39,713 bases of DNA. Source: an uncultured Clostridia bacterium. Lineage in GTDB: Bacteria; Bacillota; Clostridia; Christensenellales; UBA1242. Positions 17,054 to 30,476 of the stretch are shown in pieces (position 1 is the stretch's first letter; every line of letters starts with the position of its first letter). Position numbers and translations under genes: made by a program. The notes below the pieces were generated by a model. The model was not told where the DNA came from. It searched no databases and worked only from the letters and a program-made list of their open reading frames with translations. Location: assembly GCA_905235485.1 (NCBI GenBank), contig CAJOLY010000002.1, positions 1 to 39,713 of the forward strand, read 5' to 3'.

Positions 17054-17228
17054 ATAAAATATCTATGCAAAAAAATGCTTCAATATGTCGAATTTTGAAA
17101 TCAATTTGATTTAAATAAAAAAATAATGATATTGTAAAATCTATTTAAGTTAATTCATTTTATTTTTTAAATATATTTTACAATCAAAATATATTTTGAT
17201 ATAATATTGTCGATTATAGGAGCAAAAT

Positions 17229-23940: not shown

Positions 23941-24060
23941 AAATGTCATTAGAGAAATGTCAAGCATATCACAAATTTAATAAATTGAATATTCTATAAA
24001 TTGCTTCAAAAATAGCGAAATTGACATTTACCAAAAAAATTTCGACATTTATCTACTTTT
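23941..24060. promoter_or_regulatory. Cluster of four 0A-box-like motifs upstream of spo0A
   Basis: AAATGTCATT (23941), AAATGTCAAG (23955), inverted TTGACATTT (24021), inverted TTCGACATTT (24051). Confidence 0.45.
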
Positions 24061-24181: not shown

Positions 24182-24940
24182 ATGGTATTAAACAAAACAA
24201 AGGTTTTAATTGTAGATGACACAATTGATACTGTCAACAATTTAAAATCAAGGTTACAGCAGGAAGAAGAATTTGAAGTATTAGGTACAGCACAAAATGT
24301 AGAAGAAGCTTATAACTTTATAAGAGAAAAAAATCCAGATGTGGTTATTACAGAAATTGTTTTAAAAGGGGAAGATGGTTTTGAATTGATGGAAAGATGT
24401 GTTGACAATCACATCAACACAAAGTTCTTTGTGCTTTCATCACTTTCTCAAGAATCTTTTGTTGAAAAAGCAATGAGGCTTGGGGCAATTTATTATATGG
24501 CAAAGCCTTTTAATCCTGAGAATTTTGTTAAAAGACTTAAAGAAGCAACAAATACCATTCAAAATGCAGTTGTGTCAACAAGAGTTCTGTCAAAAGAACT
24601 GGATGAAAAAATCACAAACATTTTCATAACAGTTGGCATTCCAGCGCACATAAAGGGTTATCAATTTTTGAGAGAAGCAATCAAAATGGCTATCGCAGAA
24701 CCAGAAATAATCAATAGCATAACCAAGCGACTTTATCCAAATATTGCTCAAAAATTTGACACTTCAAGTAGTAAAGTTGAAAGAGCAATAAGACATGCTA
24801 TTGAAGTTGCATGGAATAGAGGAAAGATTGAAAACATAAATTCTCTTTTTGGAGTAAAAGTTTATTCTGACAACGAAAAACCTACCAATGGTGAGTTTAT
24901 TGCACTTGTTGCGGATAAGATGTTACTTGAAGGAGTTTAA
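24182..24940 (+). CDS. spo0A: Sporulation master regulator Spo0A (receiver + Spo0A DNA-binding domain)
   Basis: [102 protein letters not shown] before ATG 24182. Confidence 0.95.
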
Positions 24941-25066: not shown

Positions 25067-25615
25067 ATGGGAAATAAAATTGAATATGTAAGATGTCCAC
25101 GTTGTGAATTGAATTATATTGATAAACGTGAAAAATTGTGTAAAGTTTGCCAAAATGAACTAAAAGCAAAAGGGAATAGAGAACTCACTGATGAAGAATT
25201 AAAAGAGTTAAACTTATGCCCAGTTTGCAGAACGAATTATCTTATAGATGATGAGGAAATTTGTTCTGAATGTTTAGCTGAGCGTGATTTGCTTGAAAAT
25301 AACGATTTAAATCTATCTCCAGACGATCAAATGGATGATAAGGATGAACGCGGTGACAATTGGCGAGCATATGTTGAAAATGATGATGCAGAAAGCCCAG
25401 ATGAGGAATTTGGTGATATGACTTCAATCACAACTGAAGATGATGAAGTTCTTGATGATTCAGATTTGGATCTTGATATGGAAAAGGATGAAGAATTTGA
25501 CGAAGAATTTGATGAGGATTTTGACGATGATGATGACTTCGACGAAGACTTTGATGATGAAGACTTTGACGACGACGATGAAGATGATGAAGATGATTTT
25601 GATGATGAAAATTAA
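25067..25615 (+). CDS. Zinc-ribbon-like protein with very acidic D/E/F-rich C-terminal tail
   Basis: Two CX2C...CX2C units (RCPRCELNYIDKREKLCKVC; LCPVCRTNYLIDDEEICSEC); tail DEEFDEEFDEDFDDDDDFDEDFDDEDFDDDDEDDEDDFDDEN. Confidence 0.75.
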   Translation: MGNKIEYVRCPRCELNYIDKREKLCKVCQNELKAKGNRELTDEELKELNLCPVCRTNYLIDDEEICSECLAERDLLENNDLNLSPDDQMDDKDERGDNWRAYVENDDAESPDEEFGDMTSITTEDDEVLDDSDLDLDMEKDEEFDEEFDEDFDDDDDFDEDFDDEDFDDDDEDDEDDFDDEN

Positions 25616-25733: not shown

Positions 25734-25976
25734 ATGAAAAGACAATTAGAAACAATAGAAAGTGTAAAAAAAAGACTTGAAAATTTTAAGGGAATAGATG
25801 TTGAAGTTGCTGTGAATAGAGGCAGAAGAAAAATTGTAAAATTTGATGCAAAACTTGTGAGTATATATCCGAGTGTTTTCACTGTCAGTGTTCCAAATTC
25901 TAGTGAATCAGAAAGGAGTTATTCCTATACTGAAGTTTTGTGTGGCAATGTTAGGATATGTCCAAAAAATATTTAA
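25734..25976 (+). CDS. veg: Veg family protein
   Basis: 80 aa: IESVKKRLENFKGIDVEVAVNRGRRKIVKFDAKLVSIYPSVFTVSVPN...RSYSYTEVLCGNVRI. Confidence 0.88.
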   Translation: MKRQLETIESVKKRLENFKGIDVEVAVNRGRRKIVKFDAKLVSIYPSVFTVSVPNSSESERSYSYTEVLCGNVRICPKNI

Positions 25977-26047: not shown

Positions 26048-27577
26048 ATGGAAACAGACAAAATTACATCATCTTATAGGGTAAGTTTGGGAGAAACTCA
26101 AGTTACTGTTGATGTATCAATGCAAAACGAAGGAGAAGGAAATATAAGCAAAGTTTTGTCAAATGGTGCAACGGCATATATTGACGAAGTTGAAATGCTT
26201 AATGGTGAGGCACACTATATGGGTGGTGTGGTTTTTGACTTGCTTTTTTTGAATGATGAAGGAGCAAGTTGTGTTTTGTCTGAAAAAGTTGAACTCAATG
26301 GCAAAATGCAAAATGACCAAATCAATCCATTTATGAAACCAGTTTTCAAAGTTGAAACAGTCAGCACAAAAGTTTTGAGTGTTGATGGCGAAACAGCAAA
26401 ACTTTCTGCCACAATAGCTATAAAACTAGACGCTATTCAAACAGATGAAATTGAAGAAGTTAAAATTAATGATAATAGCATTCAGCTAAACAAGGAACAC
26501 GCTGACATAGCACTCGTGGTTTGTAGTGGAACAAAAACATTTGAAATAAATGAAGAATTTGACACCAAAGTAGATATTTGTCGTGTTTTATCAACAAAAG
26601 CACATATTGATTTAAAAGATGTTGATGACGGAACTGGTTATTTTTCTGTTAACGGAAATCTTTTTGTAAACTCATTGCTTGAAGTAAATAACGATGAAGA
26701 GAAGTCACTCAAAAACTTTATGGAAACTATCAATTTTAAAGAAGAATTTGAAGATGAACAAATTCAAAAAGGTGACGAAGTTTTGGCATATGCTTTTGTT
26801 AAGCCACAAGATTGCACTGTTGAATATGATGAAGATGAGGAAAATAACAATAAAACGTTAAAACTAAAAGCAGTTGTTACTGTGAAATATATAGTTCAAA
26901 GAATGACAGAAACAGAAGTCTACACGGATGCATTTTCAATGACAAACAAAACAAATATGCTTTCAGGAACATTTATGACTTCAAAGCCACAACGCCTTGA
27001 AAAATTTGGTGCCACAATTGATGGGCAAACAATACTTAATGATGATGAACCTAGAATTGCTAAAATTTGTGCTACAACAAATGAGCATATTTTAATTGCC
27101 AATGCTGTTGTTGCAAACAATGAATTAACAATTGAAGGTGTCGCTTATGCAACAGTTGTATATCTGACCGATGATGATGTACCAACTTATAATAGTGTTG
27201 ATTTGGAAATTCCTTTTGCTAACAAATTTGAAGTTGACAAGGATTTTTATGGCAATCTATTTGTGACAAGTGAAATCACTGATGTTGACGCAAAAGTCAA
27301 AAAAGGAAAAGAAATAAATATTGCAATTGATGCTTGCTTCTTGGCATATTGCTATTCAATAGAAAATCAAGTTATTGTCAAGGATATTGAGCTCACTGAA
27401 GCATTAACGCCAAGTGAATATTCTCTTGAAATGTATATTGCTCCAAAAGGAAGCACACTTTGGGACATTTCAAAACACTTGCTTATAACTGAAGAAGTAC
27501 TGCTCAAACAAAATCCAGATCTTGTGTTCCCATTAGATAAACCACAAACAGTTGTGTATTTTAGACAAAGGGCATAA
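26048..27577 (+). CDS. DUF3794 + C-terminal LysM protein, SipL-like spore envelope factor
   Basis: Repeated DUF3794-like segments; C-terminal LysM YIAPKGSTLWDISKHLLITEEVLLKQNPDLVFPLDKPQTVVYF; SD AGGAGG. Confidence 0.8.
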   Translation: METDKITSSYRVSLGETQVTVDVSMQNEGEGNISKVLSNGATAYIDEVEMLNGEAHYMGGVVFDLLFLNDEGASCVLSEKVELNGKMQNDQINPFMKPVFKVETVSTKVLSVDGETAKLSATIAIKLDAIQTDEIEEVKINDNSIQLNKEHADIALVVCSGTKTFEINEEFDTKVDICRVLSTKAHIDLKDVDDGTGYFSVNGNLFVNSLLEVNNDEEKSLKNFMETINFKEEFEDEQIQKGDEVLAYAFVKPQDCTVEYDEDEENNNKTLKLKAVVTVKYIVQRMTETEVYTDAFSMTNKTNMLSGTFMTSKPQRLEKFGATIDGQTILNDDEPRIAKICATTNEHILIANAVVANNELTIEGVAYATVVYLTDDDVPTYNSVDLEIPFANKFEVDKDFYGNLFVTSEITDVDAKVKKGKEINIAIDACFLAYCYSIENQVIVKDIELTEALTPSEYSLEMYIAPKGSTLWDISKHLLITEEVLLKQNPDLVFPLDKPQTVVYFRQRA

Positions 27578-27670: not shown

Positions 27671-27701
27671 AAAAAAAGCATCCATTTTGGTGCTTTTTTT
27701 T
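27671..27701 (+). terminator. Terminator upstream of spoIIR
   Basis: AAAAAAAGCAtCC-ATTTT-GGTGCTTTTTTTT. Confidence 0.65.
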
Positions 27702-27710
27702 GTGCTTGCC

Positions 27711-27720
27711 GGAAATAATC
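27711..27720 (+). promoter_or_regulatory. SigF/SigG-like -10 element of spoIIR
   Basis: GGAAATAATC fits the forespore-sigma -10 pattern GGNRANAMTW at 9 of 10 positions; no convincing -35. Confidence 0.35.
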
Positions 27721-27725
27721 AATCT

Positions 27726-28265
27726 ATGAAAAAAATGATTTTACTTTTAGTTTTTTTGATTGTTAGTCTGTCTGTTGTTGGAGTTTTGTTTTTAAACACA
27801 AGTACTGAAAAATCAAATAGTGATTATCTGAGAATACATATTCGTGCAAATTCAAATAGTGATATTGATCAAAAAGTTAAGTATGCCATCAAAGATGCAT
27901 ATATAAATTTTTTGACGCCAAAGATAGCTTTGTGTGAAAGCAAGGAAGATGTTACTGATTTAATTATTTCAGAAACAAAAACTCTTGAAGCTTTAGCAAA
28001 TTCAGTGTTAAAAGAAAATGGTTTTGACTATACTTCAAAAGTGAAAATAAACAGTGAAATGTTTCCAACAAGAACTTATGAGGGTTATACTCTTGAAAGC
28101 GGAATTTATGATGCAGTTATCGTTGAACTTGGTGAGGCACAGGGCAACAATTGGTGGTGCGTGATATATCCACCACTATGTTTTACTAATTATTCAAGCT
28201 CAAATTCAACTAGTGTTGTTTATAAAAGTAAAATTTGGGAAATAATAAGACAGTTTTTTAGTTAG
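27726..28265 (+). CDS. spoIIR: Stage II sporulation protein R
   Basis: YLRIHIRANSNSDIDQKVKYAIKDAY, FPTRTYEGYTLESGIYDAVIVELGEAQGNNWWCVIYPPLCF. Confidence 0.93.
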   Translation: MKKMILLLVFLIVSLSVVGVLFLNTSTEKSNSDYLRIHIRANSNSDIDQKVKYAIKDAYINFLTPKIALCESKEDVTDLIISETKTLEALANSVLKENGFDYTSKVKINSEMFPTRTYEGYTLESGIYDAVIVELGEAQGNNWWCVIYPPLCFTNYSSSNSTSVVYKSKIWEIIRQFFS

Positions 28266-28274
28266 GAGAAACAT

Positions 28275-29141
28275 ATGGATAATTCTAAAAAATCACAAAG
28301 CATTAGTAATAATAACGAAAAATTAAATAGTAAATTTAAAAATAGAAATATGACTAGTCAAAGAGCTCAAAAAAAAGATACTGGCAAATCAAAAAATTTA
28401 GTTAAGAAAATAAATCAAAAAAAAGAAAGCACTAAGGAAAACGAAAAAGCAAGCGGCAAAGTAAGTTTAGACACAAAAGTTGCTTTTAAAAGCAAGAATA
28501 TTTTTGCCGTTTTACTTGTTTTTGTTTTAACAGTTTTTTCTGTTGCTAGTGTGGTTGTTTCAGGTAACTTTTCATCAGAAACAGCGGTGACAGCAAATAT
28601 AAGCAACACAAGAATTGTTCAAGCAAAACTTGCAAGCCTTGGATATTTTAATGATGAAATAGATGGGATATATGATAGTGGAACAATTGAAGCCATAAAG
28701 AATTATCAATCAGACAAAAATTTGGCAGTGACGGGTAGTTTGGATCAAGCAACCACAACTGCACTTGGTGTTACGGATAACACACAAGCAAACACTGATT
28801 TGTATCTTCTTGCAAAACTTATTTATAGCGAAGCACGAGGTGAAATCTATGAGGGGCAAGTTGCTGTTGGTGCAGTGGTTTTGAATAGAGTTGCCGATGC
28901 AGGATTCCCAAACACACTACAAGGTGTTATATATCAACCTTGGGCTTTCACTGCACTTCACGATGGTCAATTCAATTTAGAGCCTAATGGAACAGCATAT
29001 CAAGCAGCACAAGATGCAATGAATGGCTGGGATCCAACGTATGGTTGTATTTTTTATTACAATCCTAGAACAGCCACAAGCAGTTGGATTTTTTCAAGAC
29101 AAATAATTGTCACAATAGGAAATCACGTATTTTGTATTTAA
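28275..29141 (+). CDS. sleB: Spore cortex-lytic enzyme SleB (PG-binding + hydrolase_2)
   Basis: PG-binding VQAKLASLGYFNDEIDGIYDSGTIEAIKNYQ; hydrolase LLAKLIYSEARGEIYEGQVAVGAVVLNRVADAGFPNTLQGVIYQPWAF. Followed by ypeB. Confidence 0.9.
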   Translation: MDNSKKSQSISNNNEKLNSKFKNRNMTSQRAQKKDTGKSKNLVKKINQKKESTKENEKASGKVSLDTKVAFKSKNIFAVLLVFVLTVFSVASVVVSGNFSSETAVTANISNTRIVQAKLASLGYFNDEIDGIYDSGTIEAIKNYQSDKNLAVTGSLDQATTTALGVTDNTQANTDLYLLAKLIYSEARGEIYEGQVAVGAVVLNRVADAGFPNTLQGVIYQPWAFTALHDGQFNLEPNGTAYQAAQDAMNGWDPTYGCIFYYNPRTATSSWIFSRQIIVTIGNHVFCI

Positions 29142-29150
29142 GGAGAATTT

Positions 29151-30476
29151 ATGAAAACAAGAACATTTATTGCAGTTATCATTGCTTTGGCAGTGACAGC
29201 TGGAATATTGGCAGTGGGGTGGATAGGTAGCAACAATCAATATGCGGCAGTATCAGGCAAACTAGAAAGCACATATCAAAAATCATTCAGTGAACTTGTT
29301 ACAAATGTAAACACAATTGAAATTTATCTAAGCAAAGCACTTGTGACTGTTGATAACGATAAGCAACAGGAACTATATCAAAAAGTTAATCAACAGTGTT
29401 CACTTTGCGCTGCAAATTTAAGTAACCTTCCAATAAATCATCAAAGCATTGTTGAAACCACAAAGTTTATCAATCAACTTGGAGGATTTTCTTACTATTT
29501 ATCACAAAAACTCAAAGGTGGCGACACTTTGAGTGAAAGTGATAATAATTCAATAAATGAATTGTATAATTGGTGTGTATATGTGCAAACGGTCATAAAT
29601 GATTATGCAAACAATCAAGATGGCAGTTTTAATATTTTAAACGACACAAATTTTGGCGATACTTCTTCAAATTTTGATCAAATGTTTGCAAATACTTCTG
29701 CAACAGGTACTGAATTTCCAACGCTAATTTATGATGGTCCATTTTCCGATAGCATAAAAAATAAAAAGATTTTGGGCTTGGGGGACTATAAAGTTAGCCA
29801 AGAAGAAGCGCAAAAAGTTGTTGAAGATGCTTTCAAGGATTATAAAGTTAGAAATCTTGAATTTAAGGGTATGGTTGAGGGCAAATTCAGGTCATACAAT
29901 TTCATTTTTGAAACAACTCACAGAAAATATTATGCCGATGTAACAGAACAGGGAGGGCTACTTTTGTCAGTTTCTAGTATTGGAGACTTAAGTATTGAAA
30001 AATTGGATCTTGATGATGCAGAAAAAGAAGCTGAAAATTTTGCAAAAGCTTTAGGGCTTAAAGATATGAAAAGTGTTTGGAGTACAAATTTGAGCGGCAT
30101 TGCCTATGTCAATCTTGTGCCTGTCATAAACAATGTTATGATTTATCCAGATATGATAAAAGCAAAAGTCTCACTTGATACAGGTTCAATTCTTGGTTGG
30201 GAAGCACAAAGTTATGCTTACAATCACAACACAAGAAATGACTTTAATTTTCTTATAACAGAAGAAAATGCTCGCAAAATGGTTAGTTCAGGTTTAAGCA
30301 TATTAAGTATAAAAAAGTGTATTATTCCACAAGAGTATGGTGTTGAACAACTCTGCTACGAATATAAATGCACATATAACAATTACACATATTATGTTTA
30401 TGTTTCAGGTAAAACTGGAATTGAAGTTGAAACTTTGCGTGTGATAAAAACTTCGACAGGCAATTTGTTACAGTAA
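29151..30476 (+). CDS. ypeB: Germination protein YpeB
   Basis: N-terminal TM, YpeB-type repeat domain, position after sleB; e.g. QEEAQKVVEDAFKDYKVRNLEFKGMVEGKFRSYNFIFE. Confidence 0.88.
   Translation: MKTRTFIAVIIALAVTAGILAVGWIGSNNQYAAVSGKLESTYQKSFSELVTNVNTIEIYLSKALVTVDNDKQQELYQKVNQQCSLCAANLSNLPINHQSIVETTKFINQLGGFSYYLSQKLKGGDTLSESDNNSINELYNWCVYVQTVINDYANNQDGSFNILNDTNFGDTSSNFDQMFANTSATGTEFPTLIYDGPFSDSIKNKKILGLGDYKVSQEEAQKVVEDAFKDYKVRNLEFKGMVEGKFRSYNFIFETTHRKYYADVTEQGGLLLSVSSIGDLSIEKLDLDDAEKEAENFAKALGLKDMKSVWSTNLSGIAYVNLVPVINNVMIYPDMIKAKVSLDTGSILGWEAQSYAYNHNTRNDFNFLITEENARKMVSSGLSILSIKKCIIPQEYGVEQLCYEYKCTYNNYTYYVYVSGKTGIEVETLRVIKTSTGNLLQ

Follow-up and report, generated by a model that had tools for sequence, protein, structure and literature searches.

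Phosphorylation of Spo0A is regarded as the universal gate of sporulation, and spo0A sits directly downstream of spoIVB in well-studied spore-formers. The canonical Spo0A of Bacillus and Clostridium joins a receiver domain to a Spo0A_C DNA-binding domain, recognizes the 0A box, and regulates its own gene. In clostridia, orphan kinases phosphorylate Spo0A directly, with no Spo0F/Spo0B phosphorelay (PMC11210211, PMC3533761). Two laboratory forms of the protein, sad67 and the isolated C-terminal domain, are active unphosphorylated, and sporulation then depends on their expression (PMC4689505). Aspartate-less receivers (ALRs) such as RitR and ChxR have their acceptor Asp replaced and keep the receiver fold and its conserved Lys; those that are known are phosphorylation-independent, and Glu is the commonest replacement in the class (26%) (PMC4395418).

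Here we analyzed a 39,713-nucleotide stretch of DNA (the window), which is contig 2 of a metagenome assembly (981 kb, 58 contigs, 96.7% complete) of a member of GTDB family UBA1242, order Christensenellales. This family consists of uncultured gut bacteria with reduced genomes, and the presence of sporulation genes in them was called "quite unexpected" in the one study of UBA1242 gene content that our literature search found; that study assigns Candidatus Onthoplasma to the family and makes no mention of Spo0A, histidine kinases, or two-component systems (PMC12306168). The C-terminal part of an Onthoplasma Spo0A gene is identical to that of a gene from a genome of the window's family. We know of no UBA1242 organism that has been cultured or shown to sporulate, and our literature search found no papers on a kinase-less or Glu-acceptor Spo0A. 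The window encodes a Spo0A close to several other genes, with the following features:

24041..24047, minus strand: perfect 0A box (TGTCGAA), 135-141 bp upstream of the spo0A start, at a position conserved in the family
24182..24940, plus strand: spo0A (Spo0A-1), 252 aa (TIGR02875 254 bits, cut-off 200; PF00072; PF08769)
24203..24538, plus strand: receiver domain, the sole PF00072 match in the genome (profile search, predicted fold, structural matches)
24215..24220, plus strand: acidic pair D12-D13, metal ligands, kept in the window gene and drifting in the family (translation, receiver comparison)
24353..24355, plus strand: acceptor codon GAA, E58 replacing Asp (DNA letters, translation, receiver comparison)
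24437..24439, plus strand: S86, the receiver's conserved Ser/Thr (receiver comparison)
24503..24505, plus strand: K108, conserved Lys, nearly invariant in UBA1242 (receiver comparison)
24611..24919, plus strand: Spo0A_C DNA-binding domain (profile match)
25067..25615, plus strand: protein with a zinc ribbon and a long acidic tail, next gene downstream of spo0A, of no named family (noted for its position)
25734..25976, plus strand: veg (profile match)
26048..27577, plus strand: SipL-like protein (SPOCS domain)
27687..28265, plus strand: spoIIR
28275..29141, plus strand: sleB-like cell wall hydrolase
29151..30476, plus strand: ypeB

The 252-residue translation of 24182-24940 scores 254.4 bits against TIGR02875, the NCBI equivalog model for Spo0A (curated cut-off 200 bits), and matches both PF00072 (Response_reg) and PF08769 (Spo0A_C) above cut-off, which bears out the initial annotation of this gene as spo0A. 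The DNA likewise confirms its claim that the acceptor codon is GAA and encodes E58, and the translation retains the two Asp residues at 12-13 and the Lys of the MAKPF motif, as had been noted. An AlphaFold2 prediction made with the family alignment shows an ordinary receiver fold (mean pLDDT 91.4, and above 90 across nearly the whole domain), and the best solved matches of the model include the phospho-Spo0A receiver (1qmp) and Spo0A DNA-binding domains (1fc3 and 1lq1). This is a receiver fold with Glu in place of the acceptor Asp that a phosphorylatable regulator has at the end of strand 3, and in this respect the window protein resembles the ALRs. Every congener with the gene, three in all (G068, G045, and record RUG14195), has E58, so we rejected a sequencing error as its origin; two further members of the genus (70-77% completeness) had no detectable spo0A copy. 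The Met-Pro that normally follows the acceptor is absent, as first claimed, but its loss is not peculiar to the window gene: M61 is missing from almost every family member and P62 from roughly 60%, and most other families of the order Christensenellales keep both residues.

We searched for kinases and receivers with the HisKA and Response_reg models and, in the window genome, with HATPase_c (PF02518); PF14501-type kinases fall outside these models. PF00072 found no receiver in the window genome besides that of Spo0A itself, and the genome therefore lacks Spo0F and any further response regulator. The HATPase_c search returned no histidine kinase, its only matches being GyrB and a MutL-like frame adjoining mutS that we read as MutL. 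Canonical Spo0A works with a cognate kinase or phosphorelay, whereas neither was detected here; the clostridial orphan-kinase systems share the lack of a Spo0F/Spo0B phosphorelay, but in the window genome the HisKA and HATPase_c searches found no orphan kinase either. HisKA is scarce throughout UBA1242 (19 of 147 genomes), and loss of the kinases is therefore a property of the family rather than of one incomplete assembly. Across the order, HisKA was found in 272 of 297 genomes, with at least 21 of the 25 genomes without it belonging to UBA1242; outside UBA1242, nearly all genomes of the order have it (272 of about 276). Most UBA1242 genomes have a single receiver, that of Spo0A, and 20 of the 22 HisKA matches in the family lie within ~3 kb of their own response regulator, so that they resemble ordinary paired systems.

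The receivers of the family have decayed accordingly. We tabulated Spo0A receivers from UBA1242 and from other families and defined an intact phosphotransfer site as D/E12, D13, D58, S/T86, and K108. The site is intact in 22 of 119 UBA1242 Spo0As, compared to 23 of 29 in other families, and UBA1242 members, unlike canonical Spo0A, often lack the second metal ligand. Outside UBA1242, the ratio of intact to broken sites is 4:7 in genomes with at most two HisKA kinases and 19:2 in those with three or more (Fisher P = 0.0026, uncorrected for relatedness), in a sample whose relatives are not independent and to which three kinase-poor genomes were added because they are small or kinase-poor. Within UBA1242, HisKA makes no difference (intact in 4 of 16 genomes with it and 18 of 103 without), which would follow if each of those kinases acts on the regulator next to it. 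Kinase-poor genomes outside the family carry Glu (G155 and G187) or Cys (G204) at the acceptor position, most kinase-less relatives keep the Asp but lack a metal ligand or have lost the receiver entirely, and three genera (g4, g14, and g42) have no receiver ahead of Spo0A_C. E58 is one of several outcomes of kinase loss.

Two further observations concern these altered proteins. The receiver is lost and the DNA-binding domain is intact behind an unrelated N-terminus in G116, G058, G079, G140, and G129 (all g42), G003 (g4), and G014 (g14). G204 (family f10; L276 and L275) has two Spo0A copies, one with the acceptor Cys and the other with Asp and an altered acidic pair.

We counted changes at individual sites on a Spo0A gene tree of 154 rows, which was built by a quick method with no mixture model and is not a species tree. 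Position 58 changed six times and ranks sixth in conservation among 120 receiver sites, compared to 34 changes at D13 (to many residues), 17 at D12, and two at K108. It is Asp or Glu in all receivers but one (Asn, in G006), and in UBA1242 it stays acidic while the second metal ligand drifts freely; Ser/Thr86 also stays constrained. The few changes at 58 and K108 therefore indicate that a negative charge at 58 and the Lys that it contacts are constrained, even where the metal site on which phosphotransfer depends is gone. The Glu58 clades are separate on the tree (g1 with L049, g28, g34 with L112, and g19, and G155 outside the family). Counting g34 and g19 apart, Asp-to-Glu was gained at least four times in UBA1242; these two could instead stem from a single gain followed by a reversal in g10, giving a strict minimum of three, and the same change apparently arose again in the two kinase-poor lineages outside the family. 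With all single-base changes of an Asp codon given equal weight, the expectation for Glu is 2 of 9, and five Glu among six changes (P = 0.003) or four among five (P = 0.01) exceed this, by rough estimates that ignore mutation bias. Since Glu is the commonest replacement in ALRs, the choice of Glu alone is not unusual; what is unusual is that it recurs in the master regulator of sporulation in a family lacking kinases. The ALR archetypes are single regulators, whereas in UBA1242 it is a whole family's regulator of sporulation that is kinase-free and shows several separate Asp-to-Glu changes.

An autoregulatory site accompanies the window gene, whose 0A box lies upstream of its own start at 24041-24047. 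TGTCGAA is the commonest heptamer with at least three G/C upstream of spo0A, and is found there in 68 of 124 genomes (30 genera), compared to 2.4 in shuffled sequences; these boxes cluster at -130 to -160, mostly in one orientation. Named loci of mixed families also have a 0A box (58 of 76), so the site is probably ancestral and retained rather than new. Upstream of spo0A we found no consensus match to a SigH-type promoter in the 124 genomes, and upstream of spoIIGA in the window genome (locus L237) we found no 0A box.

In our best reading, the window encodes the genuine Spo0A of a gut clostridium with a reduced genome whose histidine kinases have been lost. In line with this reading, the genome keeps a set of sporulation genes (SigH, SigE, SigK, SpoIIGA, SpoIVB, SpoIIR, YpeB, and SleB). 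We judge it reasonably probable, from sequence comparisons, that this Spo0A works without phosphorylation and is set by abundance and autoregulation, with the receiver as a fixed module. With the kinases gone and the acceptor a Glu, the decision to form a spore probably depends on control of the Spo0A level, not on phosphorylation. In the mechanism we propose, the receiver would no longer be a phosphorylation switch but a fixed dimerization or scaffold module, and contacts of the acid at 58, Ser/Thr86, and Lys108 would keep it in a state competent for DNA binding. Autoregulation at the 0A box upstream of spo0A would then set the Spo0A level and with it the entry into sporulation, and controls on Spo0A transcription or stability would provide further input. 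The initial annotation had suggested a phospho-independent Spo0A, which the single receiver, the lack of any kinase found, and the pattern across most of the family support well at the level of sequence, and sporulation control through spo0A expression, to which the conserved upstream 0A box lends support. It had also offered constitutive activity as an option, with Glu as a phosphate mimic, but most kinase-less relatives retain the Asp, and Asp-to-Glu alone is often insufficient: in earlier work, as relayed in PMC4395418, it did not activate CheY, PhoB, or Spo0A. The outcome could be different in a receiver adjusted at other positions as well, and Glu58 may mimic phospho-Asp and give constitutive activity. 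Another input to the pocket is also possible, because the window genus keeps both D12 and D13.

Extended to the whole family, the proposal becomes more tentative, and we place it somewhat short of probable: UBA1242 would be a family of spore-formers that has abolished phosphorylation control, Spo0A would be a one-component, dose-controlled, self-activating regulator, and Asp-to-Glu would be a recurrent phosphomimetic that replaces the kinases. Unlike sad67 and the isolated C-terminal domain, the UBA1242 form is natural and evolved, with the receiver kept and carrying E58, or lost only in some genera. If true, a kinase-free sporulation programme in ~1 Mb genomes, with recurrent Asp-to-Glu changes, would be an example of the gate being rebuilt, and the UBA1242 Spo0As would offer a natural set of variants for testing what phosphorylation adds to control by dose. 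The persistence of sporulation genes in a family where they were called "quite unexpected" (PMC12306168) is a further question on which the proposal bears.

The alternative that survives best is that the receiver is still a switch, with a small ligand, a metal, or a partner binding the altered pocket or the dimerization face and activating Spo0A. The conserved and confidently predicted fold, the constraint that remains on position 58, S86, and K108, and the precedent of several atypical receivers that are controlled by ligands or partners (PMC4395418) all fit such a switch. A candidate partner is the zinc-ribbon, acidic-tail protein, a role that we infer from position, as its gene neighbors spo0A in 23 genera (64 genomes) of UBA1242. 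Three genera dispense with the receiver, however, and we consider a surviving switch unlikely.

The window genome also encodes a second Spo0A_C protein (G000:C14, L002:1078-1854), which lies directly downstream of spoIVB, as spo0A does in well-studied spore-formers; we saw this arrangement in about ten genera. In its first domain a single residue is invariant, Asp57 at the acceptor position, and the predicted fold is receiver-like (pLDDT 82), so that this paralog could be the regulated Spo0A and the E58 protein its constant partner or a relic. Yet the first domain lacks the acidic pair and has no match to the PF00072 profile, the protein scores 75 bits on TIGR02875 (below the 200-bit cut-off), its DNA-binding domain is much more divergent than the one in the window copy, and without a kinase the paralog would likewise not be phosphorylatable. 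We regard this division of roles as quite improbable. The same scores and missing acidic pair led us to reject the paralog as a second canonical Spo0A. Genomes of the order Christensenellales commonly encode at least two Spo0A_C proteins, so the duplication may predate the family.

It is more improbable still that the lineage is losing sporulation and that its Spo0A is a relic in decay. Genome reduction and receiver decay would fit such a history, as would the sigma factors of the window assembly, in which we found SigA, SigH, SigE with SpoIIGA, SigK, and SpoIVB but neither SigF nor SigG, through either an assembly gap or real loss. Against it, nearly all other UBA1242 genomes, most congeners included, have matches at E < 1e-70 to the SigF model, which detects SigF and SigG alike, and 141 of the 147 family genomes retain Spo0A. 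The DNA-binding domain is highly conserved, holding most of the invariant columns in a 56-sequence alignment, and the 0A box is conserved as well. Least credible is a dedicated kinase hidden in an assembly gap or an unrecognized family: a metagenome assembly in 58 contigs and models limited to HisKA, Response_reg, and (in the window genome only) HATPase_c leave some room for one, but near-complete relatives on few contigs (G034, G001, G010, G011, and G019) are also without HisKA, every HATPase_c protein of the window genome is accounted for, and the usual phosphotransfer onto E58 is impossible.

In several genomes, separate frames of ~120-150 residues, comprising little beyond the Spo0A DNA-binding domain, occur beside a full-length Spo0A (G111:C3:41869, G094:C2:3469, G013:C3:104688, G012:C16:53686, and others). 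The window itself contains seven TGTCGAA heptamers compared to 2.6 expected, a count reached in 3 of 100 shuffles, and among them is another perfect 0A box at 17086-17092, 137 bp upstream of metG.
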